From contig JAPLUN010000409.1 of the NCBI GenBank assembly GCA_026397715.1, positions 1 through 64,000 of the forward strand: a stretch of DNA of 64,000 nucleotides. The letters are read 5' to 3'. This DNA is from Verrucomicrobiota bacterium. GTDB lineage: Bacteria > Verrucomicrobiota > Verrucomicrobiia > Verrucomicrobiales > Verrucomicrobiaceae. Shown one piece after another: positions 8,370 to 36,453 of this stretch. The notes under the pieces were generated by a model, which did no database searches, was not told the DNA's origin, and worked only from the letters and a program-made list of their open reading frames with translations. Both the position numbers and the translations under genes were made by a program. Each line of letters begins with the position of its first letter. Position 1 is the first letter of the stretch.

Positions 8370-8450
8370 TCAGCGGGCAGAACGGCGGCGACGGAAGGCG
8401 AGGCCCAGAAGTCCAAACAGAAGCAGCAGCACGCGGGTAGGCTCTGGAAC
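8370..8450 (-). other. PEP-CTERM sorting signal coding region
   Basis: VPEP, hydrophobic helix RVLLLLFGLLGLAF, then RRRRSAR at the C-terminus. Confidence 0.88.
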
Positions 8451-15815: not shown

Positions 15816-15864
15816 CGTGGCAGTGGTGCCGCTGCTGTTGGTGACGGTGCCAGCACCACCAGCA

Positions 15865-18800
15865 TTAGATGTTTAAAGTGGTGTTGGTCAGCCTGCGGAT
15901 GGCCTGGGTGTTGCCATTGAGGTCGAACGTGCCGCTGTTGACGTTCAGGTCAGCAACCGTCGCGACGGTTGCCGTCGGGATCACAAGCAGCGGATTCGTG
16001 CCAAGGCCGGTGCCGAGCTGCAATGTGCCATTATTCACAGTAGTAGCGCCTGTGTTGTAGCTTCTGCCGCTCAAGATTGCTGTGCCTGCGTCGGATTTCA
16101 CGATCCCGCCCGTGCCGAGGATGGTGGAGCCCAAGCTGAGGGTGGTGCCGGAACCGAGCACATGGAAGTGCATTGGGTTGGCACCGGAGATGATGGAGCC
16201 GCCGGAGAAGCCGGTGTTGCCAGAGTTGGCGATCACGCCGCCACTGGTGATGGTGAGCGTGTTGAGGGCGCCGTTGAGGCCATAGAACTGGCCGCTCGGA
16301 CTGTTGGTGGAAGCCAGGTTGCCGCCACTGAAGTAGCCAACACCACCGCCATTATTAAGCGTGAGGCTCTGGAATGTCGTGGCCTGCTGAATGGCGTTCG
16401 ACACGGTGGTGACAAAGTTGGCGGCGGCGGTGGCTCCAAAAGTGATGCGTTGGGTCTGCAGGCCACCTGTTGTGGCTGCACTCAAGGTGATGGTATTCCC
16501 TGCCACGCTGCTGATCACCGAGTTCGCTGCAATGCCGGTGCCACTGACAGCCATACCCGCAAACAGATTGGAAGCATCCTGAACCTGCAGTGTGGTGGAG
16601 TTGTTCATCGACCCGTTCAGCACCACTCCTGCACCGGTGGTTGACGTGAGAAGACTGCGGTACTCGGCAGAGGTCAGCAGACGGAAGCCGTTCGTGTCAT
16701 GGGTAACGAATCCGCCCGTGGTGTTGGTGGAATCGATGCCGATGATGTCAGGACGGATACCATTCGTGACTGAGCCGCTCGTTCCAGGGTTGGTACCAAC
16801 GAGAGTAGGTGTCGTGGCAAAGACTGTGACTCGGTTGGCTCCGGCAGCACCGCCGCCCAAGGTGCCGGTCGCACCCGCATTGAGCACCAAGTTGCCAGTG
16901 TTTGCAGCACTTTGTGCGGAGAGCGTGCCCAGGTTGATACGGGTCTGGTTGCCCGTGTTCTGCGTCAGGTTCCACTGGGTCTGACCAGCTAGGTTGGTGA
17001 CGGTGTTCAAATTCTCGACCACGGCGGAACTGCTGCTGCCCTGATAGTTCAGGACACCACCACGGTTGTTGAAAACACGGTCGGCGGTCGTTGTCTGGAT
17101 CGAAGTGGTGCCACCGAGGCGGTCACTGATGGCACCGGTGCCGTTCAAGGTGAGGACACCACCCCTGCCGAGGTTGGTGGTCACAAAGCCCAACTTACCG
17201 GTGGCCTGGTCCATGAGGACAGCATCACCGAGGATGGTCAGCGTGCCCAGCAAGGCACCTGAGCTGTCGCCTGTGAGCGTCCAGTCTCCCGAACCAACCT
17301 TCGTGACTGACAGCAGGCCGGAGGTGTAGTCACTGAGGAAAGTGCCCGCGAAGGTGCCAGAGGTGCTGTCACCCGTGACCAACGTGGCCCCAGTGCTGAC
17401 GTTGAAGTTCTTGATGAAAGTGCCTGTCGCGCCGCTGATGGTGCCAACCACAATGTTGCTGTTGCCACGCATGTCGAGAATGGTCCCGGTATTGGCAAGA
17501 TTGATGGCAGTGGAGACATAATTGGAGGCCGCCGTGCCAGTGCTTGGGCCGAGCACCAGAGTTCCGGCATTGACATTGACCATGAGTGTCTGGCTGCTGA
17601 AGCCGCCCAACTGAAGAACGCCTGCGCCTTCCTTATTGATGGTGCCGCTGGTAAGGATATTCGAGTTGATGGCGAGACCAATCTGCTCATTCGACTGACC
17701 GGTGGTGCCTTGGACTGCAGTCAGTCCGCCAGCCACCTGGGCCACGGTGATGGTTGCCGTCGAGGGCAGCGCGAGGCGTCCGCTGAGCATGGGCACGATG
17801 CGTACATCATCCAATGCGCTGGCGCTGATTGTATCAACCGTGTTGGTCAGAGTCAGAGTGCCGATGCCACTGATGACAAAGGTGCTGCCAGGACCGTTCG
17901 TCGCCGTCACGAATCCACCTTGCGACTGGAACGCGAGCTTGGAAACCGTTTCGTTGAAACCATTGAGATCCCAGGCTGCACCACCGCGAACTGTGACTGT
18001 GGCAGTGTCAGCGATCTGCTGGCTGCCGAGATTGCGTGTGGTGGCATTACCAACGCCAGCAGTGTCACCACCGCTCTGAGTGCCGCCTGTGACCACCAGG
18101 CTACCGGTGATCGCATTGCCAGAACCGGTCTGATTGTTGAGGAGAAGGAGTACGCCGTTGCTATAAGCGGTGCCGGTATAGGTGTTGGCGTTGGCGAGGT
18201 TGATGGTCGGGGTGTTGGCAACCTGGGCCATGGCGTCCATCACCAGATCAAAGGTGCCGGCGCCGTTGGCACCGATGTCGGAGTTGATGGTCAGGGTATT
18301 GGCACCGTTGTGGAGGAAGAGTTCTGAGCCGCTGGTGGTCAGGCGGCCACGAACCGCCGTAGAGCCGATCGTGCGTGCGGCATTGTCAGTGCCGGAGAGA
18401 AGGCCCCCAGAGGCGAGGGTGAGCGTGTCGGTGCCTGCAGCGAAGTTCACCGTGGAAGCCGCACCGTTCAGGGTGAGGGAGTTGATGATCTGGCCTCCGT
18501 TGATCACACTTTGAGTACCGCTAAAGCGAACGTTGCTGGTGCTGGTGGCCGCTGCCAGCGTGGTTGTTTGTTCGATGCCGTTCAACTGGCGGATGCCAGT
18601 GGCGGGGTCGTATTTGGCAAACTCGGCGTTTACAGCAGCGAGGGTGCCGTCATTGGTGACCACGGTGGCCCAGCCGCCGATGATATTGCTGGTGTTGGCG
18701 GTCAGGCCTGCGGCGGTGGCGGTGACGAACGGATTGTTGCCCAGCACACCGCCACCAGAAGTGAAGGTGAGGGTGGAGCCAGTGGAGCGGCTGAAGGTAC

Positions 18801-21800
18801 CGCCAAGATTAAGGGTGGCCTGGCCGAGACCGCTGTTGCCGACGTTGGCACGGATGACGGCATTGCCGCCCGTGACAGAGAGGTTGCCCAAGGTGACAGA
18901 CCCGACAGTCCCGCTGCGGCTGATGTACTCGAAGGCACCGCCATCGAGGTTGACCGCCACGGCACTGCTGATGCGGTTGCTCATGGCCTGGATGCCGGAG
19001 TCATCCCAGCGCAGGAGGCTGTTGCGAATGCTGATGGTGTCACCAGCAGCCATGCCGGACAGACGGCCCTGATCCACAAGCGTGGTGATGCTGCCCATGA
19101 AGGTGGCGTTGCCGGTAAACTGGTTGTTGTCGCGCAGGTTGAGCTGCGTGCCGCCGGTCTTGATGAAATTCAGGTTGCCATTGATCTGGCCAGTCCAGTC
19201 ACGAGCCGTACCCACGTTTGTGATGAACGTCGCAAGCGATCCCGCGTTGTTGATAATGCCGCCGCTGCCCGGGGTGCTGTTGCGGCTGAGGAGGTCCCCG
19301 AAAATCTGATTGTTGCCGTTCAACTCGAGCAGACCACCAGTCATGACGAGGGCATCGTTGTTGGCGGTGGTAGTGTTGGCGTTGATGAGCGGAGCCGTGG
19401 CAAAGCGGTAGAAGATTGCGTTGTCCGGAGCACCGGCGGCGATTTCCACCGTGCCGAGGTTGATGATGGTGGCACCGGTGTAGCTGTTGCCGGTGGTCGA
19501 GTTGAGCAGCACCTTGCCGTCGCCGCTCTTGAAGAAGCCGCCTGTCGTCGGGGCCACACGTCCGCCGAGCGCCACATCCAACGTCAGCGTCGTGCTGCTG
19601 CCCATGGTGTGAATGGTCCAGGCAGTGGTGGCCGCGGTGGTGGTCAGTGTACCTGCGCCGGTAATGGACGAACTGGTCTTGGCCAGGATACCGCCTGACT
19701 CGACCTGCAGGTTGCGGAACGCGTTCACCGTGAACGGCCCGGCGTTCTCGAAGGTGATGGAGTTGACGCTGTTGGAGGTGACGCCCGTGGCTGCCGCACC
19801 GGAGTTCAAAGCTCCCGTGACACGCATGTTAGCATTTGCCGTGAACGCCGTGGCCATTTCAGTGCTGGTGTTCAGTGGGCGAAGGCCATTAGTGGCACCA
19901 TCGTTAACCAGGAACTGGGTCGTGGCGGTCGTTCCATTGCTCGTCGACGAGGTGTCGGCGATGGCCCACGGGAGGATCTGTTTGTTGGTGGTACCATTGG
20001 CGCCGGCTTGGCCGAGAAAGGTCTGGAAATTGGTCGGCGCCGTGGTGGTGGCGAGGATGATGTTGGTGTTGGTGGCACCCGTGCCTTGGCCAAGAGCATC
20101 ACCACGAATGAACAAGGTTGCACCGTTGGCGCGGGAGAGCGTGCCGGTGCCAGCGGTCGTGATGCGAAGATTCGCGCCATTGTTGTCCAGCGAGATGAGG
20201 TTGTACCCGACGTTGATCGCAATCTGCGCGTCCGTTGCCAGCGCTTCGTTCACCGCCGTGCTGCTGTTGCCAAGTATTTCCAGCAGACCACCGTTCAGAG
20301 TGAGCCCACGTGTGCCGAGACGGGCGCTGCTGGCAGTGCCCGTGTTGTCGAGTGACAGCTTCACATCCGGGGTGATGCCGGTGTAGGTGGCGTTGTTGAG
20401 GGTGGTGGCAGTGGTGCCGAATATGCCGAGCGTTCCACTGCCGCTAAGCGTGATGCTGCCCTGGTTGATTGTGGTGGTTCCCGTTGTTGCGGTGCCGTAA
20501 GTATTGGCAGCGGTCAAAGTGAGGTTGTTGGTGCCGACCTTGGTGAGGGTGAAAGCCCCGCTGACCACGCCACTCAGAGTGATGTCACCAGAAGTCACAC
20601 CACTCAGAGCGTTGACGCGGCTGCCACCAATGCTGGTGGCAGCTGACATCACCACCGGACCGGCAAGGCTGGCTGCAGTCGAGGATGAGTTGATCAACGC
20701 AGCCAGAGAACTGACTGTGCCGACGCCTGAAAGGGTGCCGCTGCCGCCGAAGCCAGCACCAGCGATGGTGATCGGCTCAGCACCGATGGTCATGCCGTTG
20801 AGATCAAGCACTGCGCCGGTGGAGAGGGTAGTGCCGTTCGTCGTGTCGCTCAAGGCACCGGCATCCCCCAATTTCAAGGTGCCTAGATTGACAGCAAGGG
20901 TAGTGAAGCTGTTGCCGGAGCCCGAGAGGGTCAGGTTATTGGTGCCTGTCTTGGTCAGGGCGAAGGCACCGGTGATGTTGCTGCTGAAGGTCAAATCTCC
21001 GTAGCCGCCGATCGAGGAAGCGCTACCGAGGGTGATGGCACCGGATAGCGTTGCTGCCGTGGCGCTGCTGTTCCAGATGGCACCCTTGAAGTTGCCAGAG
21101 AGCGGAGCGGTGCCAGTGCCGTTGATGGTCAGCGCCTTGCTGATGCTCAAACCATTCACGTCCAACATGCCGTTGGTGGCCCCCACCAAGTTAGTGATGC
21201 TTCCAGAGGCCGTAGCGCCCTGCGAAATGGTGATCTGCGAGGCACTGTCCACGCTGACAATATAGGCACCGTTCGGGATACCGGTGCCAGTCACCGCCAT
21301 GCCCTGCTGCATGCTCGCGGTGGAAGTGATGCCCGTGATCACGGAAGAACCAGCGGCAGTCGTGGCCGCAGCCTGGGCGGTCAGGGTAGTTCCAGACACC
21401 GTAACGAGGCCAGACGGCAGCGCCCCAACGTGATTGAGCATGACTGTGCCGTCCTGGATGGCAAGGTCGCCGGTGAAGGTGCCGGCAGTGGCGTTGTTTC
21501 CACCGAGGATGAGGGTGCCTTGGCCGGCCTTGATCAGCGCGCCACTGGCCCCCGTGCCGGTGACCAGACCCGTACCGCTTTGGGTAATGGTGCCGATGAG
21601 GTTCAACGTGCCAGCACTGGCAGCAGTGCCCACATTCGTGGTTGCGATGATCGCGCCCGTGCCGATGGAGATCAGGCCGTCCGCGCCGAACCAGCCGGTG
21701 CCGAAACTGCCAGAGGCACCATTGGTGACATTCAGGATGGAGCTGTTGCCCAGCACCATGGAGAAGGTGCCTGCGCCTTGAGTGCCCGCTGTGTCGATTT

Positions 21801-24800
21801 GGTTGGCAGCCTGGGGAGCGACCACCGCACCGAACTGGGTACCAAAGGAGTCGAGCGTGGCCGTGGTGCCGTTGCCCAAATAGTAGGCATTGTTGATGAT
21901 GGCAGCACCATTGTAGCCGTTCGCAGCAGTGGGAGCTGCGAGGGTGCCGAAGAGATTGCTGGAGGCGATGGACTGGAAGCTGTTCCCGGTGTCGGCACCG
22001 GAGTAGAACAGGCGGAAGCCGCCGGAGCTGCCGGCATTAGTGACCTTGTAAACAATGGAGTGATAGCCGCTGGTGAGGTTCAAGGTGACGTTGGCAAGGT
22101 CGCTGAGGCCGTGGCCGAAGGTGCCGTCACTGGCGACAGCGACGCCATCGAGGTAAAGGGCGAGACCGTCGTCGGAACCAGAACGGAAGGTGTAATTACC
22201 CCCTGTCGTAATGTTCACGAAGCCGGAATAGGCGGCGGCACCATTGGTGAAGGTGGCAGCGGTGGCGGCCGGACGATAGGCGATGGTGCCGTCAGAAAGC
22301 TGGTTGATGAACATGTTCGAACCCGAGAAGCCCACTCCAGAGAATGCCTGGGAGACCGTGGCGGTCGGTGCCGCAGCAAGCTGGGCAAAGGCACCGTTGA
22401 GGCCGCCGCTGCTGTAGCCGTAGCTGGTCATGTTCGCACCCGTGAGCACAGCACTGTTGATCTGAATGGGATAAGCGCCATTGAGGACAATCGGTGCGCC
22501 AGAACTGAGGGTGGTCGTGGTGCCGATCTGAACTTGGTCGGTAAAGAGCAGGTTCCCCTGGCCGACATTGACAGGCTTGTCTCCGGACCAACCGAAGACG
22601 ACCACTGTGGAACCGGAGGCGACGTTGATCATGGGCGCGGCACCACCCACCGTGTCACCGCTGATGTTCACCAGGCGCAGAGTGTAGCCGTTGGCGCTCG
22701 AGACGTTGAGGATCTGGCCGCCATTGAGTTGCAGGTCGTTGATGGCGATGGTGTTGCCCGTGTTGGCACCGTTGTTGCCGACGTTGAGGCTGGCCGCAGC
22801 AAGCGAGCCGTTGATGACAATGTTGTTGGCGTAAGAGATGACACCATTGTTGGCCGTTCCGTTGTTCTGAAGGGAGAGCAGACCTCCGTTGCCGATGGTG
22901 GCAAGGGTGCCGGAGAAGACAGGGGCCGTGCTATTGTCGTTGAGGCCGGCGAGGGTGAGCGTGCCCGCGTTGACCGTGACACCACCCTTGAAGGTGTTGT
23001 TACTGCCCAGAAGCAACGTGCCAAGACCTTCCTTGGTGATTCCGTAGCCATTGCCGCCGTCATCCAGAAGCATGTTCAGGGCCAGCACCGCCTGGGGTGC
23101 ATCCACTGTCACCGTCGTATTGCCCAGCAATGTGGTCGTGGTGTTATTGCCCTGGATGGTCAGGTTGTTGGTACCCTTGAGCGTGATCTGCGTGCCGCTG
23201 AGCACCAGAGCATTGCTCAAAGTATTCGCGCCGGTGGAGGTCAGGTAGGTGCCCGCCGCACCGATGGTGAGAGCGCCGGTGCCAATCGGGCCGTTAGCGA
23301 AGGCGGAGACGATACCCGTAGTGCCATCACGCGTGGTCACGTTCGTGCTGCCACCGACGGCGAGACCGCCCGCCTGCACATTCACGCCGCCGCCGAAGAG
23401 GCTTGCGCCGGAAAGTTGGAGGAGGCCATTGCCGGTTTTGTTCATGCCTGCGCCCGAGACTGCGGAATCGCCGATTGGAGCACTGATTGCCAGCGTCGGG
23501 GTGACGTTGGCAACGGTGGTGTTGCCGTTCACTGTGACGGGTGCAACGTTGAACGTGCGGTTCGCGCCGTTGAGATCCAAGGCGATGCCGCCGGTGCCGG
23601 CGCCAGAGATGGTGGAGACGGTGCCAACGTTAGAGGAGATGGCGGTGATGCCGCCGGTCAACTTCAGGATGCCGGTGCCAGTGGTCACGCTCGGCGCAGT
23701 GGTACCGCCGTTGTTCTCGAATGCCAGACCCGCGAGGGTCTGGTTGTTGTTGTTGAGTTGGAGAATGGCAAACTGGCCACGCAGGATGGGCGTGATGCCG
23801 AAGTTGATCTGGTTGGCCTGAAGGAGGCGGACGTTGCCGCCGTTAATAATAAGCGAATCAGCGACGGTCGTTGCAAGAGGAATCGCGGAATTGCCATTGG
23901 CACCAGTCGCCCCGGTCACGTTCAGATCCATGATGCCGTTGGTCTGTGAACCGTTCGGAGTGTTGACGACCGTGCCACCTGTGTAGGTATTCCCGCCGTT
24001 CCTGATTTCGAGTGTGCTGGCGTTGTAGCCCGTATAAGTGAGGCGCAACGGGTCGGCACCATTGTCCACAATGCGTGAGTTGATGATGTTTGCGGCGGCC
24101 GAAGTAAGCACGAGATTGAGGGTGTCAGCCACCGAGTCCGGCGTCCCACCCGCAGTCAGGCGACCACTGTCCACGGCGGAACCGATGGTGGTGCTAAAGG
24201 CTCCTGACTTGACCAACAAACCAGCGGTCAGATTGAGGATGTCGGTGCTGTTTGCATAAGTGAAGGTCTGAGCGGCTCCTGGATTCAAGGCCAGCGCGTT
24301 CACGTTTAGCCCGCCGGTCGGCAGATTGATCGCTGTAGTGGCCACCTTGTAGTTGCCGGTGGCGTTGTTGGCGGCAGGAAGGACCGTGCCGTCATAGCCC
24401 TGGTAGCCCGGCTGGTTCAGTGCCGCGAAACCACCACTTAGGTTGCCTGCAGTCGGAGCCACGTAGCTGACCAGATCGGCACCACCAGAGTTCATCCACG
24501 GCACGATGCCATTGACAAGAAGGCTGGCTCCGTTCGTCGCCGTCATGCGGGCGGCAGTGCCCATCTGGCCGCTCATGCTGTTGAGCAGCAACATGGCACC
24601 GTTACTGTTCGTGATGTTGCCAAGGGAAAGGACAGCCGAACGAACCACGCCCACAGCACCATTGTTCATCACAATATTGTTTCCGCCTTCGGCAATCAGG
24701 ATATCCCCGAGTGTTTCGGTCGAGTTGATCGAATCGCGACCTGTGTAGGTCAGGACACCTCCACGCATGCTGATCGTTGCGGCATTGTTGACGCGGTCTG

Positions 24801-27800
24801 CATTCGACATCGTACCGGCTTCCGTGATGGTCAGGCTTCCGCCATTGAGAGCGATGCCTGAGGTGGCGGAAAGTCTGCCTTCATCCTGCAGGGTGAGTGT
24901 GCCGCCAGTGATGATCGTGGCACCCGTGTAAGTGTTGTTGCTGAAGAAGACGGTGCCGGTGGAACCAGCCTTGTTAAAGACCAATCCCGTGCCCTGGATG
25001 CTGCCACCCCAGCCTGCTGTGGTGCCCTGTGTATCCGCCGAAATGAGAAGATTGGTGCCGGTAATCACGCCACCAGTGCCGGCAAAGGCCGTACGATTGG
25101 GTGAGGTGATTTGGCCAACCATTTGGGCATTGGCTCCGAGGTTGAGCGTTGCTCCCGGACCTACGGCAAGGTTCTGGCCAGCCGTGCCACCCTGTGCTCC
25201 CTGCCAGAGGGTGTTCTCACCACCGGCGAGGGTGACGGTGCCACCATTGATGGTGAAGTAACTGGTGCTTGTGTTGAAGAATTGCTTGGTATTGAACGTG
25301 AGGTTTCCGTTCAGGCCCTTGGTCATGTTGACCGTGCCAGCAATGGCCGCATTCACAGTCAGATCCGCGCCGGTATCCACCAGAAGCCCACCTTCCACCG
25401 CGCCAAAGTTGATGACGGGAGCGGAATTCAAGCCAACCAAGGTGGCGTTACCGATGGTCTGACCGGCCGCTGTCGAAAGCAGATTCCCTGAAGTCAGGGT
25501 GAGCTGATTGCCACCTGAGGTGGCGAAGGTCACGTCCGTGTTGGCACCGTCGATTCGGAGGGCGTTTAGCGTGCGTCCGTTCAGACCCGGATTGCTCAGC
25601 GCGGCAGTGTCGCCGGTGACGTTGTAGGTCGTGGTGGCGCTGAAGACACCGGCCACGTTGGAGGCATTGATGCCGTAAGCGGTGCCGCCGTTGACGTTGG
25701 TAAAGGCCAGATCGCCTCCTGTGCCCGTGCCGTTGGAGACGGTGTAAGCAGAGAAAGCGGTGACAGCTGCAGCCGCAGCAGACTGGGTGGCAAAGTTCGT
25801 GCCTGCGCCGTCTTTGATGACAGTGCGGGCGATGATGCCTGCGGTCTGCGGAGCCAAGGCGGTAAAGATCAACTGGTTCGTCGTACCGTTGAAAGTCTGG
25901 GCGCTATTGAGGCTGAGCACCGAACCGCCGCCAATAGCCGCGAGGCTGGCAAAGGTCAGAGTGGCGTTGGAGCCACCACCGTTGTTCAGCGTCAGGGTGT
26001 TGGCACCCCAGGAGGAGGTCAATGCACCGAAGGCCTGCGCGGAAACCGCAGCGCCGTTGGCGGTGTAGGTCAGGCTGCCGTTGGTGAGACCCACGGCGCG
26101 CGTACCGGCAATGCGAAGCAGCGGACCGCCCGTGGTGTCGTCGATGTTCAACAATGCGTTGTTGTTGACGGTGATGTTGCCAGTTGCACCGGTGAGCTGG
26201 CCTGCGCCGCTGATGTTAAACGTCCCCTGCGTCACAGTGATTGCCGCGGTACTACTGGCGGTCCCGGTGAGGTTCAAGGTGCCAGTGCCAATCTTGGAAA
26301 AGGCCGCTGTGTTGGGTGTGTAACTGGCAAGATTGATGATGCCAGTGCCAACTGCGTTAAATGTCGGACTGTTGGTGTTGGCCATGGCCCCGGCGGTGAT
26401 GTTCAGGGTGGCACCGCTGGCTGCGCCGAGAATGTATCCGACCGCGGACGTATTGGTAATGCTCCCGCTGAGAGTGTTGTTACCGCTGGCCGAAAACACT
26501 GCCCCGGTGTTATTGATACCGAAGCCGTTGCCACCGCCGGTAGCCAAGTTAATGGGGCTTGCAAGATTGATGTTGTTTGTCAACCAGAGCGCACCACCGC
26601 CTTGTGATGTGTTCGTGCCTGGGGCAGCGACGTTGATCTGACCGGATCCGAGCGCGTTGACATTGTCGATCTGAACGACACCCTGGGCGATGGTCGTCGT
26701 GCCGGTGCGGGTGCTGTTGTTGGCAGTGATGATGAGCGTGCCAAAATCATTCTTCTGCAAGGCATTGGCGGCGGCACTAAAGGTGAAGGCAGTGTCGATA
26801 GTTGCGGTGGTATTTGCAGCGACATCAATACCAACGGTCGCTGCATTGAGGTTGATGGTGCGGCCCGTAAGGGTGTAGGTGGTGCCCCCTGCGAGACGCA
26901 GGCCCTGGGTGCCGGAGTTGGCGCTGAGACGGACGACGTTGGAGGCCTCTCCAAGGCCACTGTTGGCGTTCACAGAAAGAATGCCCGCTGTCACGTCGAT
27001 GATGGCACTGCTGCCACCGAAGGTGTTGACGCCAGTGAGCGCCAGGGTGCCCGCACCGGACTTGGTGAGCACGACGTTCGACGCACCCGTGGCACCACCG
27101 CTGACGATGCCGCTGAGGACGAGGCCGTCGTTGGTATTGGAGTTGTTGGCAGTGGCGACGTTGAAGACAGGTGTTGCTGCGATGGTCGACAGTGCAACGC
27201 CATCAGACAAGGCGAGCTGGTACTGGTTGGCGTTGTTGACCGTGAGGCCGCTGGCGAGGGAACTGAAAGAGGTAGGCGTGATGATTTTGTTGATCGCCTG
27301 ATTCCAGAGGACGGTCTGGCCTGCGCGACCGATGGAGATGGTCGGCGGCGACGCGGTCATGGTGATGGCTCCGACATTGATGACATCGTTCTGCACGTCA
27401 CCGTCACCGTCAGTGAGGAGGCCGAGGGTGCCGCCGTCGTTCAGGGAGATCGGGATTGCTCCGGCACCCGTCAGATTGATGATCAAGTTACCCAATCCGG
27501 TCTTGGTCACACTGGTGAGGGAGCCAGCGGTGGTGATAGGGCCAACGAAAGCCGCGGTGAGGTTGGGATTGTCCACGTTGACGGTGAGAGCGCCCGTCGG
27601 TGTGGTGATGGAACCATTGAGAGTGATGGTTCGGGTGGTGCCGGTTGTCGTGTTACGGAAGGTGGGGGTGCCGAGAAAGGTAATAGGGTTAGCCAAAGTA
27701 CGATCTGTATCATTGGTAAGCAGGGCAGTACCCGAAGCCATGGAGACAGATCCTGTGCCAGCAGGGCCACTCAGAATGGCGTTGGCATTGAGTCCCGTGC

Positions 27801-30800
27801 CAGCGGTAATAATGCTAGCAGCATTCGAACCCAGCATAAGGCCACCGCTGGTGCCACCAACTGTGGTCCCACCGGTGTAGGTGTTAGCACCGCTGAGCAG
27901 CAGGATGCCATCACCCGTCTTGCTGATAGACGATGGGCTAGCCCCATTGGCAATAATGGATGCGATGGTCAGCGTGGGCTGAACCGTGGTGTACGTAACG
28001 CCACCGACCGCGATGGGAGCAATGCTGAACGTATTTGCACCACTGGCCAGGGCCACTGTGCCGCCAGTGATGATGGCGGTGGTTGCGGCGTTGCTGGAGG
28101 TAGCGGTGATTGGGCTGGAACTGGAGAGGGTGAGGATGCCGCCGACGTTGATCGTGGGGGTGTTCACGTTACCGCCGATGTTGTTGAAGGTGACGCTGTT
28201 CAGCGTGTTGTTGCCCACCAGGGTCAGGGTGCCCTGGCCGTTGATGGTCACATTGCTGGTGGTGGCGATCTGGCCCGCGTTGGTGATCATCGCCACAGTG
28301 GAACCGCCGCCAGTCACCCCGCCGTTGATAGTGAGGTTGCCGGGGATGACGACCGCCCCGGCCGCGCCGTTCAGGTTGAGCGTACCCCGGTTCACGATGG
28401 TGCCGCCGCTGTAGGCGCTGGCGTTCCCCGTGTAGTCATTCGTGAGAGAGAGAATGCTCGCGCCGTCCTTGATCAAAGCGAGAGCCCCCTGAATGGCCGA
28501 GTTGATGGTAAGCGTGCCCTGGTTGTTGTAGGTGATCAACTCGCTGGTGCCGCTGGTGATGATCCCGCGCGTGCCCGTCGTGCCGATAGTGGTATTGTTT
28601 GCGTTGTCACTGCGGAGGATGCCGCCGAGTTCCAGATTCAACACATCCGAGGCGCCGGTGAAGAGAATGTCATTGGTGAAGGCACCGCCGATGCGCAGCA
28701 GCCCCGTTGTGGTCGTGCCGGACGGCAGGAGCGTCGAAGCTGCGGCGGTGGCATTGAGATTCGTGATGCTCCCGGAGGCAAACACGCCAGCGAGTGGAAC
28801 GGTATTTGCAGTGCCGATATTTTGGCTGTTGTAGCCGGTGTAACCTCCCTGACCCACGACGCCAACGCCCTGGCCGGCGTTATAAGCAGCATAGTCTGTC
28901 TGATTGGCCACGGCCCAGGCACCTAAGATGCCACCGCCGACAACCGCCGGAGCGGAGGCAAAGACGATGCGGGCGTTGTTGCCCTGCTGGCCCAGATTGG
29001 TGCCGGTGAAATTGATCGTGGAACCTGCCGTGCGGGTAAGGGCACCGAAGGTGAGATCGACTGAACTGAAGGCACTGCTTCCGGCTGTGGGTGTGGCAGT
29101 GATGGTGTTGGAACCCTGGGCAAGGGAGATGGCTCCAAACGTTTCTGTGGCAATTGTGCCCACGCGACCGGTGTAAGTGATGGTGCCGCCGCGCAGGGTG
29201 ATCGGCGCTGCGTCGTTGATGCGGTTGTTGTTCTGAGTCTGCAGGTTGGTATTGTTTGAGAGAGTCAGACCCGCGTAGTTGATATCGATGGCACTGGTAT
29301 TGGTGAGAGCGCCGTCATTTTCCAAGGTGATGGTCTGGCCAAGGATGCTCGTCGTCCCCGTGTAAGTCTGGGCCATGGCGAATGTCTGAGCATTCGCACC
29401 GGTTTTGACAAAATTGATCCCGCCAGTGATCTGACCACCGAAGCTACCGCCATCGCGCGTTACAAAGGTGGGCGTGCCCGTCGTGCTGGTCACCGTGCCA
29501 CTCGTGCCGGGAAGTCCAGAGCCATAGCTGTTCAGAGCCCCCACATACTGGGTGTTGCCATTCAGATCGAGCGTGGTGCCCACATCTAGACTCAGGGTGC
29601 CTGGGGTGGCACTGCCGGCGGCGAAGAGGGTATTCATTCCCCCATTAAGCCTCACCGTTCCTCCCGCGATGTTCGTCGTGGTGTTATAGAACTGGGCAGC
29701 ATTGAGGTTCAACTGGCCCGCACCGGTCTTTTGAATGGTCTGTCCGACCAGGGCTCCATTAAGATCCAAAGTGGTGCCCGAATCTGTCTGGAGGAAAAGG
29801 GTCTGGCCACCGGTGATCTGGGCTGCGGTGATGGCGTTGTTTCCACCGGTGTTGAGAATATTGCCCGCTGTCAGAGTGAGGGTTCGCCCTGCCGTGCCGA
29901 CGGTGAGACCGGTGCCGGTGATCTTCAGCGCATTGATTGTGCGGCTTGCTGTCAGACCCGTGCTGGCATTCACACTCATGGTGGCCGTGGCCGGAGCGGT
30001 ATTGATGCTCCCGGTATTGTAACCGGTGAAGGCCTGGAGACCGTTGGCATTGGGGTTGGTACCGTCGTGATTGTAACTGACAAAATCACCCGCGATCATC
30101 ACCTTGGACACAATGCCGCTGGTTGCAGGCAAAATCCCCAAGCCCGTAGAGGTGGTGAAGAAGATCTGGTTGCTGGTGCCGAGTCCCGTGACACCGCTGA
30201 TGTCAAGAGCGGCTGGACTCCCGGTGAAGGTGACCGAGGCAAAGGTGAGGCTGTTCGTGCCCACGCCAGACATGTTGATGCTGCTAGGCCCCGTCACAGT
30301 CAGAGCGCCAGCGACTTCCGCTGTGGTGTTACCGATCAGGGAGAGCGTGCCGCCCACCATCGAGATCGCGCCTGTATCAAAAAGGCGGTTACTGTTATTG
30401 TTGACACTGTTATCCAACGTCAGGGTACCAGCGTTGAGGGTGAAGGTTCCAGCAGTCCAAGCTCCATTGGGACCACTCAAGGTGACAGCCCCACGATTGA
30501 CGGTGAGAGCGCCGGTGGCGGTGTTTGCTCCAGTGGAGGTGAAAGTGCCAGTGCCCGAATAGGTCAGTGCATTGGCTCCGGTGCCTGCCGCGTAGATGCC
30601 GTTGAGAGTGGTAGTGCCCGAACCGAGAACGGTCAACGTCGAGGCTGCGGTATTGGAAATGTTCCCCGTGATGGTCAACGAACCGCCGGAGATGTTGTTG
30701 ACCAACAGACGGCTGGCCGCCAGCGAGAGCGCGGTTGCGGCGCTGAGTTCAATGCTGTTGCCGCCGCTGAAGGTGGCCGGGTCACCACCCAGGGTGATCG

Positions 30801-33800
30801 GGGTGGCGATGGCGCTGGTGCCCGTCAAGGCAAAGCTGCCCTGCACCTCGCCGCCATTAAAGGCAAAGGTGGAGGTCGCGCCCAAGGGATTGACACCCGC
30901 TGTTTTGTTGAGAATCAGCCTACCTTGGACGAGGGTGGTGGCTCCAGTGTAGGTATTGGCCGCGCCAGCCATTGTGAACGAGGCGTCTGGATGGATGCCG
31001 ATGTTCCAAGCAATCTTGCCGCCAGCCGCTGCATTCTCGGTGATTGCGCCATTCCAAAGCGTGGAGCCGTAACCGCGGAAGCTGATCGTTTGGGTCGCTG
31101 CCGTGGTTCCAGCTTCAGCGTTGACGAAGTTCCCATTGACGGTGAGGAGCGCTCCATTTTCCAGGTTGTTACTGATCGTCCACTGGTTGTTGCCAGCCGT
31201 CTTTGTCACGCTGTTATTTAGGGTTATCGCATTCTGCCCAGCAAATACGCCGGTCGAGTTGTTTCCCTGAACAGTTACAGCAGTGGTCAGCGCACCACCG
31301 AAGGCAAAGATGCCACCATTGTTGATATTGATCGCGCTGGCAGCACCGATGCCATTCGCCGTAAGGCCCAGCAAGCCACCGTTTGAACTGATGGCACCAG
31401 TGAAGGTGTTCGCGCTGGCTGGATTGAGTATCCACACACCACCGTCGGCTTTGGTCACGGCCAAAGTGTTTGCACCGTTACCCAAAACAGAAGTGACGAC
31501 GTTGTTGTCCGTGTTGGTCCCACGAAGCTGCAAGGTCAGTGCAAAGGCTCCGGTTTGACTATTGGTAATGCTGGAAAGACTCAGCGCGCCGCTGCCCGAA
31601 CTATCAATGGTGTAAGTACGTGCGGCAGTCATGGCCGGCGTAAAGGTAATTGGGCGCGATGATGTCTCGCCCGAACCTACGTAGAGCAGGTTGAGAGCAG
31701 CGTCACCGTTCCAGTTGAACGTGCCGCCACTGGCGCCAAGGCTGCTGCTTGCTGTACCACTGGCATTACCCAGAGAAGTGACGATCAGAGAACCATTATT
31801 CAGAATGGTGTTGGCCGTGTAGGTGTTCGCATTCCCAACGATGAGCGTGCCGGCTCCGCTCTTCGTAAGCGTGCCACCCGCACCGCCGGAAATGACGCCG
31901 GAAACTGTGGCGAAATCGAGATTCGTGGTGCCATTGTCATCCACCTGAATGGTGCGTGCCGCAGTGCCGAGGTTGATCGGATTGATCAACTCGACATCCG
32001 CCAGCGCGGTGGTGGAACTAAGGATGAGGGTGCTGCCAGCCGTGGGTGCCGTACCGAGAGCGAGGGTTGCACCGGAACTGAGATTCACAGTGAGCTTGGA
32101 AGTGCTGGCAGCAAAACCACCGATGCCGGTGAATTGCACCTGACCGGCTCCCGTGCCGAGATTCATGGCGAAGGTCCCGGAGGTTTGCAGAACGCCGCCG
32201 TTGAGGGTCAGGTTGCTGTTTGCCGAGAGCCCTTGAATGAGAGAAGCCTGCGCAGCCACCTGGAGGGCGCCACCAGTGATTGTCGTCGCACCCGCGTAGG
32301 TGTTGGAACTGGTGGGATCAAGAATCCAGAGACCAACGCCGGACTTGGTCAGCGCAAAGTTTGCGTTGTTCAGCAACGGCACGAAACGGTTGTCACCGGT
32401 GGACGTACCCGCGAGGCCGAGCGTGGCTGTGCCCGAGCCGGCATAGGCGATTGCGTTCGTGTTGTTGAACACGAGCGTTGCATTGTTCGCAGAGCTGGCT
32501 GCTGCGGTGTTGTTCCCAAACTGGCCCGAGGAGTCAATGGTGCCAGTGGCACCACCGGTGATCGTGAACAGACGGTCAATGGATACGGATGGGGTCTGTG
32601 TGGTCTGGAAGACGCTGGTACTGGCTCCAGTGTAAAGGATGGTATTGGCACCGCTGGCAAAGACGATACTGGCCTGATTGGTGGCTGTGCTCGTGTTATC
32701 ACCGCGTCCAATACTGCTGGCGACGCCAATGTTGGCGAGGGTCGTGGCTGCAATCGTACTCGCTCCTGTACCAGTGAGTGTGAGCGGTCCAGTGAAGGTG
32801 TTGAGGCCGGTCAGTGTTTGTGTGGCAGTCCCCGTCTTGGTGAGCGCCACCGTGCCTGCTCCGTTTTGAATGATGCCCGAGAAAATGCCGGCGGTATTGC
32901 CACTGCCAATCGCGATGGTCGAGGTCGTGCCAGCATTACCGTTAGTGACAGTGCCCGCACCGGCAAGGGCATTCAAGGGCAGTGTGGCCGTGCCTGAGAC
33001 GACTGGCGTGGCCGAGACGTTGACACCATTGACATCCAAAGTGGTTCCCTGACGCACTGTCAGGTTCATGTTGGTAGCACCTAGGGTGGTGGTGGCACCC
33101 GACAGGCGCAGAGTGCCCTCATTCACATTGATCGTGGACGCTGCTCCTGCATTAACCGCGTTTAAAACCAAGGTGCCCGCACCATTTTTGCTAAATCCAC
33201 CGGTGGTACCAACAAGGATCGGAGTTGAGAGTGTGAGGGTATCGCTGGCAGTATCTGTGCGGAAGACAAGTTCCGCAGCCCCACCGCTGGTGATCCCAGT
33301 GCCACCTGAAATAGTGGAACTGAAGCCACCCGTCTGCAGGATGCCACCGGACACGGTATTCCCGCCATTCTGAAGCGTTAGGGTCTGTCCAGATGCCAAG
33401 GTGAGCGCCCGTGCGCTGGAGAATTTAATACCCGCGTTGATCGTAGCGGTGGTCTGAGCGGTCACGTCGCCGGTTACGAAGTATGGCAGCGTGTTGGCGG
33501 TGGTGAGCGCGGCACCGCCAGCAAACGTGCTGTAGGTGGCCGCTGCCGCCGTGGTGGTGCCGCCGAGGAAGTCCGCACCATTGAAGTAAGCGCGGGCACC
33601 GACAATGCCGTTAACAAGGGTGTTGCCGGTAGTGAAGGCAATGCTGTTGGTGCCAGGGCTCGCCGGGACGACCAAGTTCAAGCTCGTTCCCGTCGCTGGG
33701 ACGACCATCGAACCGAAAGTCAGAGTGTTGGTGCCACTCGCACCAGGGGTGATCTGCACGGTGCCGGCACCTGCGGTGACGGAGAGGATGCCTGCTGTCT

Positions 33801-36423
33801 GCGTGCTGCCCGTAGAGAACGCCTTGTAGTTGAGCGTGCCGCCTGCAAAACCGTTGTTGCGGATTGTGTCCGCAGCGAAGACGACGTTGGTCAGACCGCT
33901 GAGCACTGGGGATGCTGCCGCAGCCGCCAGCGGGTTCAACTGCACCGTGCCGCCCGTGATTGTAAGTGGCCCGCCGAAGTTCGGACTGCTCGTAGGGGTG
34001 ATGGTGACACCACTGGCCACACCACCGACGGTAACCGTGCTCCCCGTGGTGCTGGCAAGAGTCACCACGGTGCCGCTGGTGATGGCGCTGATATACCAAC
34101 TGCCGGTAAGGCCCGTGCCGGTGACCTGCTGGCCGACCACCAGGTTCGCCGTGCTGCCAAAGGTCAGGGTGGGCGCGGTCGTGGTGCCAGCGCTGACCGC
34201 CGTGGTCGCGATCCCCGTAGTCGCGCCAGTGACCGTGCCCAGGACGACCGTCGAACCTGTGCTGGTCAGATTCTGGCTCGTCGTGAACTGCGTGGGGCTG
34301 ATGATCTGGCTGATCACGGTACTGAACGGAACCCCCGTGCCCGAGATCGGCTGCCCGACCACAAGGCCAGTGGTGCTGGTCGTGGTGATAGTGCTCGATG
34401 CTGTGGTCCCAACCGCCGTGATACCAAAGGCGGCATTTGCCGTGCCGATAGTGCTGGAAGTTGTTCCAGGGCTGGAAATCTGCCACAAGCCGGAGTCATA
34501 CTTTGTGACGCCTGCACCCACGGTGGTGTTCGTGATGATTCCCTGGATGTCGTTCGTGTTCGTATTGGCACCACCGAGCACCAAATTCTTGGCACCTGTA
34601 CCATTGTTGACAATGTTGGGCTGGACAACAAGCGCACCTGTGCCGTTGCTCGTCAGGATGTTGTTCGTGGCATTGAGCAGGAGCACCTTGTTCGTCCAAG
34701 TCTGCGCCGCACCCGTATAGTTGAGCGTACCACCGCCGAAGACCACGCGGCCGGTGCTCACCGCATTCGTATTGTCATTGAGTGCCCCGATGCTGCTGAT
34801 GTTGAGTGTGCCAGCGTTGACGTTGGTGGCTCCGGTGTAGGTGCCAGCCGTTCCCTGAATGGTAAGGGTGCCCGTACCTGCCTTGGTCAAAACGATCGAT
34901 CCGGTGCCCTGAGTAGGCTCCAAGATGTTGCCCGTCAGCACCATTTCACCCGTTGAGGTCAGTGTGAGAGTGCGGGTCGTGGTTTCAGTGGGGCGGCTGA
35001 TGTTTGCATTGACGGTCATCGTTCCGTTGCTGGCGTTTGCGAGGGCTCCCGTGCCCCCGTTCGTCCATGTAATTGTTCCGCTAGGGCCGCTAAAGCTGGA
35101 GTTGAACCCGTTGCGTCCGTTCACTTGGAGGTTGGCGTTCAAATCCATCGAAATGTTCCCGAAGGTAATCGTCTGGTTGATCGGATTCGTGGTGTAGTTT
35201 CCAATGCTGTGATCAACAGTGATACCGTTGCTGTTTCCACGGACGCGGAAGCCGATGGTGCCCCAGTTCGTCGTGTCTGATCGGATTTCAAGGCCCTGGG
35301 TCGTTCCCGCACCATTCAAATCCACCGATCCCACTGCGCCAGTGGTGACTGAGCTGAAGCCGAGCGCCGAGGGCGTTGATACACGAACGGTGCCGCTGTC
35401 AATACGCATCGTTTGAGCGAAGCTGTTATTGCTGTTCTGCAGCCAAAGGGTGGAGGCGATGGTTGTTCCACTCTTGATGAAGCGATCTGTCGCGTTATCG
35501 GTCCCCAAAACTCTGCCGCTAACAATCCAGTTCCCGTTGCCGAAAAGAATGTTTGCGGCACCGGTGCCCAAATTCAGATTCCCACTGAGGGTGGTGATGC
35601 CATGGGTCGCCACAGCGCGTCCCTCGGTAGCTGCATTCCCCAAGGTGAGGTTGCCAGCCAAGGTGTTGTAGCCAATGCTAACAACGCCACCGCTCGCATT
35701 CGCCGTACCCGGACCACGACCCGCAACTGAAATCTCTCGGGTGAAATTGATTATCGAACTGGAGCCATCCAGAACAAGTGTCCCACCGGAGTATCCCGGG
35801 TTCCCAGTGCCGGCAATCCCAGTGATAGAGATGGCTGTGGTGCCAGTGCCAAGTTGACCTTGGCTGGTCACCACAAGATTCCCACCTTTGATCGCAACAT
35901 CTCCTGACAGCCCCGTGTTAGCGCCACCGAGAACCAAAGTTCCGTTACCCGTTTTGGTAAACCCCGAGGTACCCGCAAGCGAGGCAGAAATCGTGGCACG
36001 ATTTGTTCCCAAGCCACTGTTGTTCACCGCAAGCAAGGGTGAGGTAACCCCAGAAGGTGCCGTGAGCGTCAGAATATTGCCACCGCCTGCAATGGTGTAA
36101 CCACTGGAGTTGAAGGTAAGCCCACCCGCTGTGATCGGCCCGCCCAGCGTCACAGTGCCTGCGGTGCCGGTGAAGATGGCGATGTCCGTGCCATTGATCC
36201 AAGCTGCATCCGTGGCGACGCCATTCCACCAATTCGGCGAAGTTATATCCCAAGTGCCTGTGCCACCCAGCCCGCCACCCGTGGTCACATTGCCGAGCGC
36301 GGTGCTGTCCTGATCCCAATAAAGCGTCGCGGCCTGCAAGGGCTGTCCGATCTGCCAGGAGAAGATCAAGAGAATCATCGAAAGGCCGACGGTTTGTCTG
36401 TAGGCGCGTAAGAGCATTAACAT
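15865..36423 (-). CDS. Giant autotransporter-associated beta-strand repeat protein, N-terminal and central part (6852 aa)
   Basis: Signal peptide MLMLLRAYRQTVGLSMILLIFSWQIGQPLQA; mature start ATLYWDQDST...GTGTWDITSPNWWNG; very many GxGTLxLxGxNTYTGxTTVxxGTLxL modules; stops at IRRLTNTTLNI without any C-terminal anchor. Confidence 0.93.
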   Translation of the reverse strand: MLMLLRAYRQTVGLSMILLIFSWQIGQPLQAATLYWDQDSTALGNVTTGGGLGGTGTWDITSPNWWNGVATDAAWINGTDIAIFTGTAGTVTLGGPITAGGLTFNSSGYTIAGGGNILTLTAPSGVTSPLLAVNNSGLGTNRATISASLAGTSGFTKTGNGTLVLGGANTGLSGDVAIKGGNLVVTSQGQLGTGTTAISITGIAGTGNPGYSGGTLVLDGSSSIINFTREISVAGRGPGTANASGGVVSIGYNTLAGNLTLGNAATEGRAVATHGITTLSGNLNLGTGAANILFGNGNWIVSGRVLGTDNATDRFIKSGTTIASTLWLQNSNNSFAQTMRIDSGTVRVSTPSALGFSSVTTGAVGSVDLNGAGTTQGLEIRSDTTNWGTIGFRVRGNSNGITVDHSIGNYTTNPINQTITFGNISMDLNANLQVNGRNGFNSSFSGPSGTITWTNGGTGALANASNGTMTVNANISRPTETTTRTLTLTSTGEMVLTGNILEPTQGTGSIVLTKAGTGTLTIQGTAGTYTGATNVNAGTLNISSIGALNDNTNAVSTGRVVFGGGTLNYTGAAQTWTNKVLLLNATNNILTSNGTGALVVQPNIVNNGTGAKNLVLGGANTNTNDIQGIITNTTVGAGVTKYDSGLWQISSPGTTSSTIGTANAAFGITAVGTTASSTITTTSTTGLVVGQPISGTGVPFSTVISQIISPTQFTTSQNLTSTGSTVVLGTVTGATTGIATTAVSAGTTTAPTLTFGSTANLVVGQQVTGTGLTGSWYISAITSGTVVTLASTTGSTVTVGGVASGVTITPTSSPNFGGPLTITGGTVQLNPLAAAAASPVLSGLTNVVFAADTIRNNGFAGGTLNYKAFSTGSTQTAGILSVTAGAGTVQITPGASGTNTLTFGSMVVPATGTSLNLVVPASPGTNSIAFTTGNTLVNGIVGARAYFNGADFLGGTTTAAAATYSTFAGGAALTTANTLPYFVTGDVTAQTTATINAGIKFSSARALTLASGQTLTLQNGGNTVSGGILQTGGFSSTISGGTGITSGGAAELVFRTDTASDTLTLSTPILVGTTGGFSKNGAGTLVLNAVNAGAASTINVNEGTLRLSGATTTLGATNMNLTVRQGTTLDVNGVNVSATPVVSGTATLPLNALAGAGTVTNGNAGTTSTIAIGSGNTAGIFSGIIQNGAGTVALTKTGTATQTLTGLNTFTGPLTLTGTGASTIAATTLANIGVASSIGRGDNTSTATNQASIVFASGANTILYTGASTSVFQTTQTPSVSIDRLFTITGGATGTIDSSGQFGNNTAAASSANNATLVFNNTNAIAYAGSGTATLGLAGTSTGDNRFVPLLNNANFALTKSGVGLWILDPTSSNTYAGATTITGGALQVAAQASLIQGLSANSNLTLNGGVLQTSGTFAMNLGTGAGQVQFTGIGGFAASTSKLTVNLSSGATLALGTAPTAGSTLILSSTTALADVELINPINLGTAARTIQVDDNGTTNLDFATVSGVISGGAGGTLTKSGAGTLIVGNANTYTANTILNNGSLIVTSLGNASGTASSSLGASGGTFNWNGDAALNLLYVGSGETSSRPITFTPAMTAARTYTIDSSGSGALSLSSITNSQTGAFALTLQLRGTNTDNNVVTSVLGNGANTLAVTKADGGVWILNPASANTFTGAISSNGGLLGLTANGIGAASAININNGGIFAFGGALTTAVTVQGNNSTGVFAGQNAITLNNSVTKTAGNNQWTISNNLENGALLTVNGNFVNAEAGTTAATQTISFRGYGSTLWNGAITENAAAGGKIAWNIGIHPDASFTMAGAANTYTGATTLVQGRLILNKTAGVNPLGATSTFAFNGGEVQGSFALTGTSAIATPITLGGDPATFSGGNSIELSAATALSLAASRLLVNNISGGSLTITGNISNTAASTLTVLGSGTTTLNGIYAAGTGANALTYSGTGTFTSTGANTATGALTVNRGAVTLSGPNGAWTAGTFTLNAGTLTLDNSVNNNSNRLFDTGAISMVGGTLSLIGNTTAEVAGALTVTGPSSINMSGVGTNSLTFASVTFTGSPAALDISGVTGLGTSNQIFFTTSTGLGILPATSGIVSKVMIAGDFVSYNHDGTNPNANGLQAFTGYNTGSINTAPATATMSVNASTGLTASRTINALKITGTGLTVGTAGRTLTLTAGNILNTGGNNAITAAQITGGQTLFLQTDSGTTLDLNGALVGQTIQKTGAGQLNLNAAQFYNTTTNIAGGTVRLNGGMNTLFAAGSATPGTLSLDVGTTLDLNGNTQYVGALNSYGSGLPGTSGTVTSTTGTPTFVTRDGGSFGGQITGGINFVKTGANAQTFAMAQTYTGTTSILGQTITLENDGALTNTSAIDINYAGLTLSNNTNLQTQNNNRINDAAPITLRGGTITYTGRVGTIATETFGAISLAQGSNTITATPTAGSSAFSSVDLTFGALTRTAGSTINFTGTNLGQQGNNARIVFASAPAVVGGGILGAWAVANQTDYAAYNAGQGVGVVGQGGYTGYNSQNIGTANTVPLAGVFASGSITNLNATAAASTLLPSGTTTTGLLRIGGAFTNDILFTGASDVLNLELGGILRSDNANNTTIGTTGTRGIITSGTSELITYNNQGTLTINSAIQGALALIKDGASILSLTNDYTGNASAYSGGTIVNRGTLNLNGAAGAVVIPGNLTINGGVTGGGSTVAMITNAGQIATTSNVTINGQGTLTLVGNNTLNSVTFNNIGGNVNTPTINVGGILTLSSSSPITATSSNAATTAIITGGTVALASGANTFSIAPIAVGGVTYTTVQPTLTIASIIANGASPSSISKTGDGILLLSGANTYTGGTTVGGTSGGLMLGSNAASIITAGTGLNANAILSGPAGTGSVSMASGTALLTNDTDRTLANPITFLGTPTFRNTTTGTTRTITLNGSITTPTGALTVNVDNPNLTAAFVGPITTAGSLTSVTKTGLGNLIINLTGAGAIPISLNDGGTLGLLTDGDGDVQNDVINVGAITMTASPPTISIGRAGQTVLWNQAINKIITPTSFSSLASGLTVNNANQYQLALSDGVALSTIAATPVFNVATANNSNTNDGLVLSGIVSGGATGASNVVLTKSGAGTLALTGVNTFGGSSAIIDVTAGILSVNANSGLGEASNVVRLSANSGTQGLRLAGGTTYTLTGRTINLNAATVGIDVAANTTATIDTAFTFSAAANALQKNDFGTLIITANNSTRTGTTTIAQGVVQIDNVNALGSGQINVAAPGTNTSQGGGALWLTNNINLASPINLATGGGNGFGINNTGAVFSASGNNTLSGSITNTSAVGYILGAASGATLNITAGAMANTNSPTFNAVGTGIINLASYTPNTAAFSKIGTGTLNLTGTASSTAAITVTQGTFNISGAGQLTGATGNITVNNNALLNIDDTTGGPLLRIAGTRAVGLTNGSLTYTANGAAVSAQAFGALTSSWGANTLTLNNGGGSNATLTFASLAAIGGGSVLSLNSAQTFNGTTNQLIFTALAPQTAGIIARTVIKDGAGTNFATQSAAAAAVTAFSAYTVSNGTGTGGDLAFTNVNGGTAYGINASNVAGVFSATTTYNVTGDTAALSNPGLNGRTLNALRIDGANTDVTFATSGGNQLTLTSGNLLSTAAGQTIGNATLVGLNSAPVINFGAVEGGLLVDTGADLTVNAAIAGTVNMTKGLNGNLTFNTKQFFNTSTSYFTINGGTVTLAGGENTLWQGAQGGTAGQNLAVGPGATLNLGANAQMVGQITSPNRTAFAGTGGVITGTNLLISADTQGTTAGWGGSIQGTGLVFNKAGSTGTVFFSNNTYTGATIITGGTLTLQDEGRLSATSGIALNGGSLTITEAGTMSNADRVNNAATISMRGGVLTYTGRDSINSTETLGDILIAEGGNNIVMNNGAVGVVRSAVLSLGNITNSNGAMLLLNSMSGQMGTAARMTATNGASLLVNGIVPWMNSGGADLVSYVAPTAGNLSGGFAALNQPGYQGYDGTVLPAANNATGNYKVATTAINLPTGGLNVNALALNPGAAQTFTYANSTDILNLTAGLLVKSGAFSTTIGSAVDSGRLTAGGTPDSVADTLNLVLTSAAANIINSRIVDNGADPLRLTYTGYNASTLEIRNGGNTYTGGTVVNTPNGSQTNGIMDLNVTGATGANGNSAIPLATTVADSLIINGGNVRLLQANQINFGITPILRGQFAILQLNNNNQTLAGLAFENNGGTTAPSVTTGTGILKLTGGITAISSNVGTVSTISGAGTGGIALDLNGANRTFNVAPVTVNGNTTVANVTPTLAISAPIGDSAVSGAGMNKTGNGLLQLSGASLFGGGVNVQAGGLAVGGSTNVTTRDGTTGIVSAFANGPIGTGALTIGAAGTYLTSTGANTLSNALVLSGTQITLKGTNNLTIQGNNTTTTLLGNTTVTVDAPQAVLALNMLLDDGGNGYGITKEGLGTLLLGSNNTFKGGVTVNAGTLTLAGLNDNSTAPVFSGTLATIGNGGLLSLQNNGTANNGVISYANNIVINGSLAAASLNVGNNGANTGNTIAINDLQLNGGQILNVSSANGYTLRLVNISGDTVGGAAPMINVASGSTVVVFGWSGDKPVNVGQGNLLFTDQVQIGTTTTLSSGAPIVLNGAYPIQINSAVLTGANMTSYGYSSGGLNGAFAQLAAAPTATVSQAFSGVGFSGSNMFINQLSDGTIAYRPAATAATFTNGAAAYSGFVNITTGGNYTFRSGSDDGLALYLDGVAVASDGTFGHGLSDLANVTLNLTSGYHSIVYKVTNAGSSGGFRLFYSGADTGNSFQSIASSNLFGTLAAPTAANGYNGAAIINNAYYLGNGTTATLDSFGTQFGAVVAPQAANQIDTAGTQGAGTFSMVLGNSSILNVTNGASGSFGTGWFGADGLISIGTGAIIATTNVGTAASAGTLNLIGTITQSGTGLVTGTGASGALIKAGQGTLILGGNNATAGTFTGDLAIQDGTVMLNHVGALPSGLVTVSGTTLTAQAAATTAAGSSVITGITSTASMQQGMAVTGTGIPNGAYIVSVDSASQITISQGATASGSITNLVGATNGMLDVNGLSISKALTINGTGTAPLSGNFKGAIWNSSATAATLSGAITLGSASSIGGYGDLTFSSNITGAFALTKTGTNNLTLSGSGNSFTTLAVNLGTLKLGDAGALSDTTNGTTLSTGAVLDLNGMTIGAEPITIAGAGFGGSGTLSGVGTVSSLAALINSSSTAASLAGPVVMSAATSIGGSRVNALSGVTSGDITLSGVVSGAFTLTKVGTNNLTLTAANTYGTATTGTTTINQGSITLSGSGTLGIFGTTATTLNNATYTGITPDVKLSLDNTGTASSARLGTRGLTLNGGLLEILGNSSTAVNEALATDAQIAINVGYNLISLDNNGANLRITTAGTGTLSRANGATLFIRGDALGQGTGATNTNIILATTTAPTNFQTFLGQAGANGTTNKQILPWAIADTSSTSNGTTATTQFLVNDGATNGLRPLNTSTEMATAFTANANMRVTGALNSGAAATGVTSNSVNSITFENAGPFTVNAFRNLQVESGGILAKTSSSITGAGTLTTTAATTAWTIHTMGSSTTLTLDVALGGRVAPTTGGFFKSGDGKVLLNSTTGNSYTGATIINLGTVEIAAGAPDNAIFYRFATAPLINANTTTANNDALVMTGGLLELNGNNQIFGDLLSRNSTPGSGGIINNAGSLATFITNVGTARDWTGQINGNLNFIKTGGTQLNLRDNNQFTGNATFMGSITTLVDQGRLSGMAAGDTISIRNSLLRWDDSGIQAMSNRISSAVAVNLDGGAFEYISRSGTVGSVTLGNLSVTGGNAVIRANVGNSGLGQATLNLGGTFSRSTGSTLTFTSGGGVLGNNPFVTATAAGLTANTSNIIGGWATVVTNDGTLAAVNAEFAKYDPATGIRQLNGIEQTTTLAAATSTSNVRFSGTQSVINGGQIINSLTLNGAASTVNFAAGTDTLTLASGGLLSGTDNAARTIGSTAVRGRLTTSGSELFLHNGANTLTINSDIGANGAGTFDLVMDAMAQVANTPTINLANANTYTGTAYSNGVLLLLNNQTGSGNAITGSLVVTGGTQSGGDTAGVGNATTRNLGSQQIADTATVTVRGGAAWDLNGFNETVSKLAFQSQGGFVTATNGPGSTFVISGIGTLTLTNTVDTISASALDDVRIVPMLSGRLALPSTATITVAQVAGGLTAVQGTTGQSNEQIGLAINSNILTSGTINKEGAGVLQLGGFSSQTLMVNVNAGTLVLGPSTGTAASNYVSTAINLANTGTILDMRGNSNIVVGTISGATGTFIKNFNVSTGATLVTGDSTSGTFAGTFLSDYTSGLLSVTKVGSGDWTLTGDSSGALLGTLTILGDAVLMDQATGKLGFVTTNLGRGGVLTLNGTGAISDRLGGTTSIQTTTADRVFNNRGGVLNYQGSSSSAVVENLNTVTNLAGQTQWNLTQNTGNQTRINLGTLSAQSAANTGNLVLNAGATGTLGGGAAGANRVTVFATTPTLVGTNPGTSGSVTNGIRPDIIGIDSTNTTGGFVTHDTNGFRLLTSAEYRSLLTSTTGAGVVLNGSMNNSTTLQVQDASNLFAGMAVSGTGIAANSVISSVAGNTITLSAATTGGLQTQRITFGATAAANFVTTVSNAIQQATTFQSLTLNNGGGVGYFSGGNLASTNSPSGQFYGLNGALNTLTITSGGVIANSGNTGFSGGSIISGANPMHFHVLGSGTTLSLGSTILGTGGIVKSDAGTAILSGRSYNTGATTVNNGTLQLGTGLGTNPLLVIPTATVATVADLNVNSGTFDLNGNTQAIRRLTNTTLNI
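21950..22330 (-). other. PA14-like domain embedded in the giant protein
   Basis: SGSNMFINQLSDGTIAYRPAATAATFTNGAAAYSGFVNITTGGNYTFRSGSDDGLALYLDGVAVASDGTFGHGLSDLANVTLNLTSGYHSIVYKVTNAGSSGGFRLFYSG: PA14-type FxSDDGxxLYIDG...GxHxIxxxYxxxGGxxxxxLxY pattern. Confidence 0.78.
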
Positions 36424-36453
36424 ATTGCTGGAAATTTGAACGGAGGGGGCTGA

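Follow-up and report, generated by a model that had tools for sequence, protein, structure and literature searches.

Organization of the giant gene

The window (the whole stretch of DNA that was analysed, 64,000 nucleotides long) carries on its minus strand two adjoining open reading frames of 6,852 and 2,481 aa, the second of which is called ORF B here, that lie in different frames and together make up a single very large coding unit with the following features.

8370..36423, minus strand: whole giant gene of about 9,350 codons, a single gene by orthology, with one frame break
36500..36519, minus strand: AT-rich block ATCAAACAAAAGTTTGGCAT, located some 80 bases ahead of the ATG and conserved in the related genome G001; possibly part of a promoter
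15865..36423, minus strand: 5' part, the 6,852-aa ORF with an ATG start; signal peptide and PATR/beta-strand repeats
36331..36423, minus strand: Sec-type signal peptide, residues 1-31, with likely cleavage at ...QPLQA/ATLYWD (by inspection; conserved in relatives)
15865..15867, minus strand: TAA stop that is due to one extra base, which four intact relatives lack (junction alignment)
8370..15815, minus strand: 3' part, the 2,481-aa ORF from a spurious TTG; repeats and C-terminal anchor
8370..8450, minus strand: PEP-CTERM sorting signal consisting of a VPEP motif, a transmembrane helix and an RRRR tail (TIGR02595, helix 428-449 of the C-terminal model, alignment)

The coordinates and lengths of both ORFs, the signal peptide on the first and the PEP-CTERM signal on the second are all as an earlier sequence-only reading had described them, and so is its arithmetic, since the span of 28,054 nt equals 9,351 codons plus 1 nt. 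The open frame of ORF B begins slightly upstream of its TTG, and the GC content by codon position shifts phase at the ORF junction, as is expected if there is one gene with a change of frame. That some 9,350 codons should stay free of stops but for one lesion goes far beyond what chance would produce. The giant protein is rich in threonine (17%), glycine (15%) and alanine (12%), followed by asparagine and serine (9% each), with a pI near 5. Cysteine typically makes up about 0.9% of residues in bacteria, so that some 80 would be expected in a protein of this size; the absence of cysteine that had been noticed on reading the translations holds on counting (zero in the 6,852-aa ORF and zero in the 2,481-aa ORF).

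Just upstream of the gene there is a 23-bp direct repeat at 36449-36492. A close match to the upstream block at 36500-36519 occurs nowhere else in the genome, and the idea that the block is a motif shared by a regulon of giant genes was rejected because an exact copy occurs at the window locus only.

Intact orthologues in relatives

When 96 related genomes were searched at the DNA level, 1 kb around the junction serving as the query, four orthologous junctions emerged, all in the same genus (labelled Prosthecobacter), with identities of 97% (G001), 77% (G011), 74% (G008) and 74% (G004). All four relatives harbor the gene as an uninterrupted single ORF, of 11,053 codons in G001 (C73:40676-73834), 8,918 in G008, 8,523 in G011 and 8,416 in G004, and the N- and C-terminal features of the window gene are common to these orthologues; the two ORFs of the window are therefore one gene. 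The earlier proposal of one giant protein of about 9,350 residues gains its support from these relatives, each of which is one base shorter at the junction. That the window would contain two independent genes, as a mechanical reading of its two ORFs has it, is extremely improbable: the relatives have a single ORF, which already refutes an independent second gene for them, and ORF B has neither a signal peptide nor a promoter-like site. The sequence-only reading had named a separate promoter and start with a signal sequence for the 2,481-aa ORF as the result that would overturn it, and the start region of ORF B showed no promoter-like site, no signal peptide and no conserved start.

The frame break at the junction

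The frame is broken about 73% of the way along the giant gene, where the window has exactly one base more across the junction than G001, G008, G011 and G004 (four of four alignments). When some 40 kb of the alignment between the window and G001 were inspected by eye, the other frame-changing gaps in coding sequence were compensated within a few bases or lay at ORF ends, which leaves the extra base at the junction as the only isolated, uncompensated one seen. The dN/dS ratio against G001 is 0.30 before the break and 0.24 after it (about 0.2-0.3 on either side), values of purifying selection; the low ratio after the stop indicates that the 3' part was under selection at the protein level until recently. 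Judged from these alignments, the locus consists of a single giant gene whose frame is shifted by one base, whether through a mutation of recent date or through an error in the assembly, and the sequence as written in the window would yield a 6,852-aa protein devoid of its anchor.

The chances are about even that the break arose in assembly or sequencing and that the organism's gene is intact, with about 9,350 codons. The genome is a draft of 703 contigs, the lesion is the only one in about 9,350 codons, dN/dS is low on both sides and four relatives are intact; however, no long homopolymer lies at the site, and the rest of the alignment between the window and G001 shows no comparable isolated frameshift, which suggests a low error rate in the assembly. 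There is a somewhat less than even chance that the strain itself carries the break, as a recent mutation or as an off state; it would then secrete an anchorless protein of 6,852 residues and leave the 3' part untranslated. The extra base is present in the sequence and the remaining aligned coding sequence looks clean, but the rest of the gene shows no decay, and the junction lacks a repeat tract suitable for phase variation. Programmed ribosomal frameshifting that links both ORFs is very unlikely, even though a T_TTA_AAC heptamer stands in the correct phase shortly before the stop: a -1 shift at this heptamer leads into the wrong frame and terminates after 52 residues, whereas joining the ORFs requires +1, the frame is continuous in the relatives and the heptamer is missing from G001. 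The intact relatives already largely refute programmed frameshifting, and a -1 shift at T_TTA_AAC was rejected.

Sorting signals, repeats and exosortases

The N-terminus of the giant protein, MLMLLRAYRQTVGLSMILLIFSWQIGQPLQA/ATLYWD, is by inspection a conventional Sec signal, and at the other end TIGR02595 (PEP-CTERM) matches ORF B at residues 2456-2479 with 21.2 bits against a cut-off of 16. The relatives share the signal block at the N-terminus and the C-terminal block of VPEP, transmembrane helix and RRRR, with the exception of G001, which has VPEA. The genome encodes three exosortases (PF09721), one of which is XrtU, above the NCBIfam cut-off, while another scores above the TIGR02602 cut-off for a general exosortase and has an EpsI-like neighbour; there are eleven PEP-CTERM matches in the genome. 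The protein thus combines the C-terminal signal, the N-terminal signal peptide and the exosortase in the same genome that characterize PEP-CTERM sorted proteins, its processing and surface location being putative.

Between these signals, PF12951 (PATR) and TIGR02601 repeats were found above cut-off in all three parts scanned, although recognisable PATR matches cover a small fraction of the length. A second type of repeat, GLVVGM...GIPASSIITQI.SGTT.T.S.N, occurs at 14316-14640 and elsewhere in ORF B among the PATR repeats and has no Pfam match. Pfam and NCBIfam scans of all parts detected no autotransporter beta-barrel family, and a type Va autotransporter was rejected since there is no C-terminal barrel and the C-terminus is PEP-CTERM. 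Phage families gave no match.

Structure prediction had been suggested for the beta-helical fold that the sequence-only reading proposed, segment by segment, and its outcome was divided. For the last 450 residues AlphaFold2 gives a beta-rich model (pTM 0.73) that ends in a helix at 428-449. Its best PDB matches in Foldseek, all of them non-significant (E of 0.03 or more), are a beta-helix domain from a metagenome and the passengers of autotransporters. The model of a central segment of 500 residues has a mean pLDDT of 38.7 and no confident fold. Hydrophobic residues show a weak 22-residue periodicity, a search of the ORF B sequence against the PDB gave no match at E 0.01, and a fold search against viral proteins returned nothing significant. 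A beta-helical fold of the giant protein is plausible and weakly supported by these models.

Mosaic structure of the giant gene

The window and G001 are syntenic at this locus, and most flanking genes share 88-99% protein identity; a 1,178-aa ORF at 44769-48305, with C-type lectin and LRR matches, is missing from the otherwise syntenic G001 locus. Synonymous divergence (dS) between the two genomes is 0.26-0.55 in the flanks (0.34 overall). Within the giant gene it falls to 0.04-0.16 at residues 4500-7000 and 8000-9000, whereas it approaches or exceeds 1 over most of residues 0-4000 as well as at residues 7000-7500; G001 also has some 1,500 additional residues. Relationships change along the gene as well: at residues 350-1400 G001 resembles G008 (65-83%) more than it does the window (44-46%), at residues 1750-2100 the window is nearer to G008 (81%) than to G001 (65%), and quartet site counts flip between 1:1:38 at residues 1050-1400 and 41:4:0 at residues 5250-5600. 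With blocks far below and far above the divergence of the flanks and topologies that switch among species, the giant gene is, by these comparisons, a recombinational mosaic, of which repeated exchange of blocks between species is the plain reading. In G008, G011 and G004 the gene lies in a different neighbourhood from that in the window and G001, and the whole gene has possibly moved between places. The N-terminal blocks are the most variable, which would suit a surface-exposed distal end.

Giant genes across the genus

PVC bacteria are rich in proteins of more than 5,000 residues (PMC11573180). When 48 genomes of the genus were scanned with the junction-region and C-terminal alignments as queries (all counts being lower bounds), at least 67 distinct open frames of at least 5,000 aa were found in 26 of them; at least 38 of these frames reach 8,000 aa, and at least 24, distributed over 15 genomes, reach 10,000 aa. 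The longest frame among the matches listed has 14,657 aa. Two of the largest, in G002 (C102:2274-46244, 14,657 codons) and G001 (C83:236373-279500, 14,376 codons), are the two entries of the tally that were read through, and both show a signal peptide, an ATLYWD mature start, a VPEPSR...RRRRR end and one cysteine. By this tally the size of the window protein is well within the range of the genus: the estimate of about 9,350 residues stands, but such a size is not in itself exceptional, given at least 67 frames of 5,000 aa or more.

A tentative extension, held to be possible rather than probable, is that Prosthecobacter-like Verrucomicrobia keep a repertoire of giant PEP-CTERM fibres (about 5,000-14,700 residues, several per genome) that would vary by internal block swaps between species; this would constitute an undescribed modular system of surface variation, perhaps driven by phages or grazers.

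Proposed model and significance

It is highly probable that the locus encodes one giant exported surface protein, a PATR-repeat fibre with PEP-CTERM sorting, whose frame is broken in the assembly and which diversifies by block swaps with homologues. The protein of this Prosthecobacter-like verrucomicrobium would be made with a Sec signal peptide, and its body, almost wholly composed of beta-strand-rich PATR-type repeats, is probably stacked as a long beta-solenoid fibre. One of the cell's exosortases probably cleaves and processes the PEP-CTERM tail and would thereby bring the fibre to the cell surface or into the exopolysaccharide matrix, where its role would most likely be adhesion or that of an envelope or matrix component. 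The one-base insertion breaks the frame in the assembly, through recent mutation or assembly error, and the gene would diversify by exchanging blocks with the homologues of other species.

The kind of protein, with its PATR repeats, Sec signal and PEP-CTERM, is already known and the frame break is ordinary; the mosaic structure is new and, together with the genus-wide repertoire, worth following. Giant surface proteins of PVC bacteria are mostly unstudied, and this locus offers a clear case: at least five species have the giant gene as orthologues, and it shows purifying selection, sharply bounded recombination blocks and a sorting signal of known type. The locus also illustrates how draft annotation splits giant genes, since a single base is enough to make two misleading entries out of a protein of about 9,350 residues.

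Comparison with known systems

It was in Verrucomicrobium spinosum, with its 65 examples, that PEP-CTERM was first seen (Haft et al., 2006, PMC1569441); among the papers searched, none links Prosthecobacter and PEP-CTERM. The window protein shares with PEP-CTERM/exosortase (EpsH) proteins the signal peptide, the Ser/Thr/Asn-rich body, the PEP motif with transmembrane helix and basic tail, and the exosortases in the genome (PMC1569441), but differs from them by its length of about 9,350 residues. Its repeats score above cut-off in every part and are of the family found in the proteins with autotransporter-associated beta-strand (PATR) repeats (TIGR02601, PF12951); unlike those proteins, the window protein lacks a C-terminal barrel and carries PEP-CTERM in its place. 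The huge bacterial proteins of more than 5,000 aa (PMC11573180), and giant surface proteins like those of Apilactobacillus kunkeei (PMC12863079) or the adhesin SiiE (PMC6272769), are likewise giant, exported and repetitive, with a probable role in adhesion or at the surface. Their anchoring and secretion differ from those of the window protein, and the likeness lies in size and presumed role.
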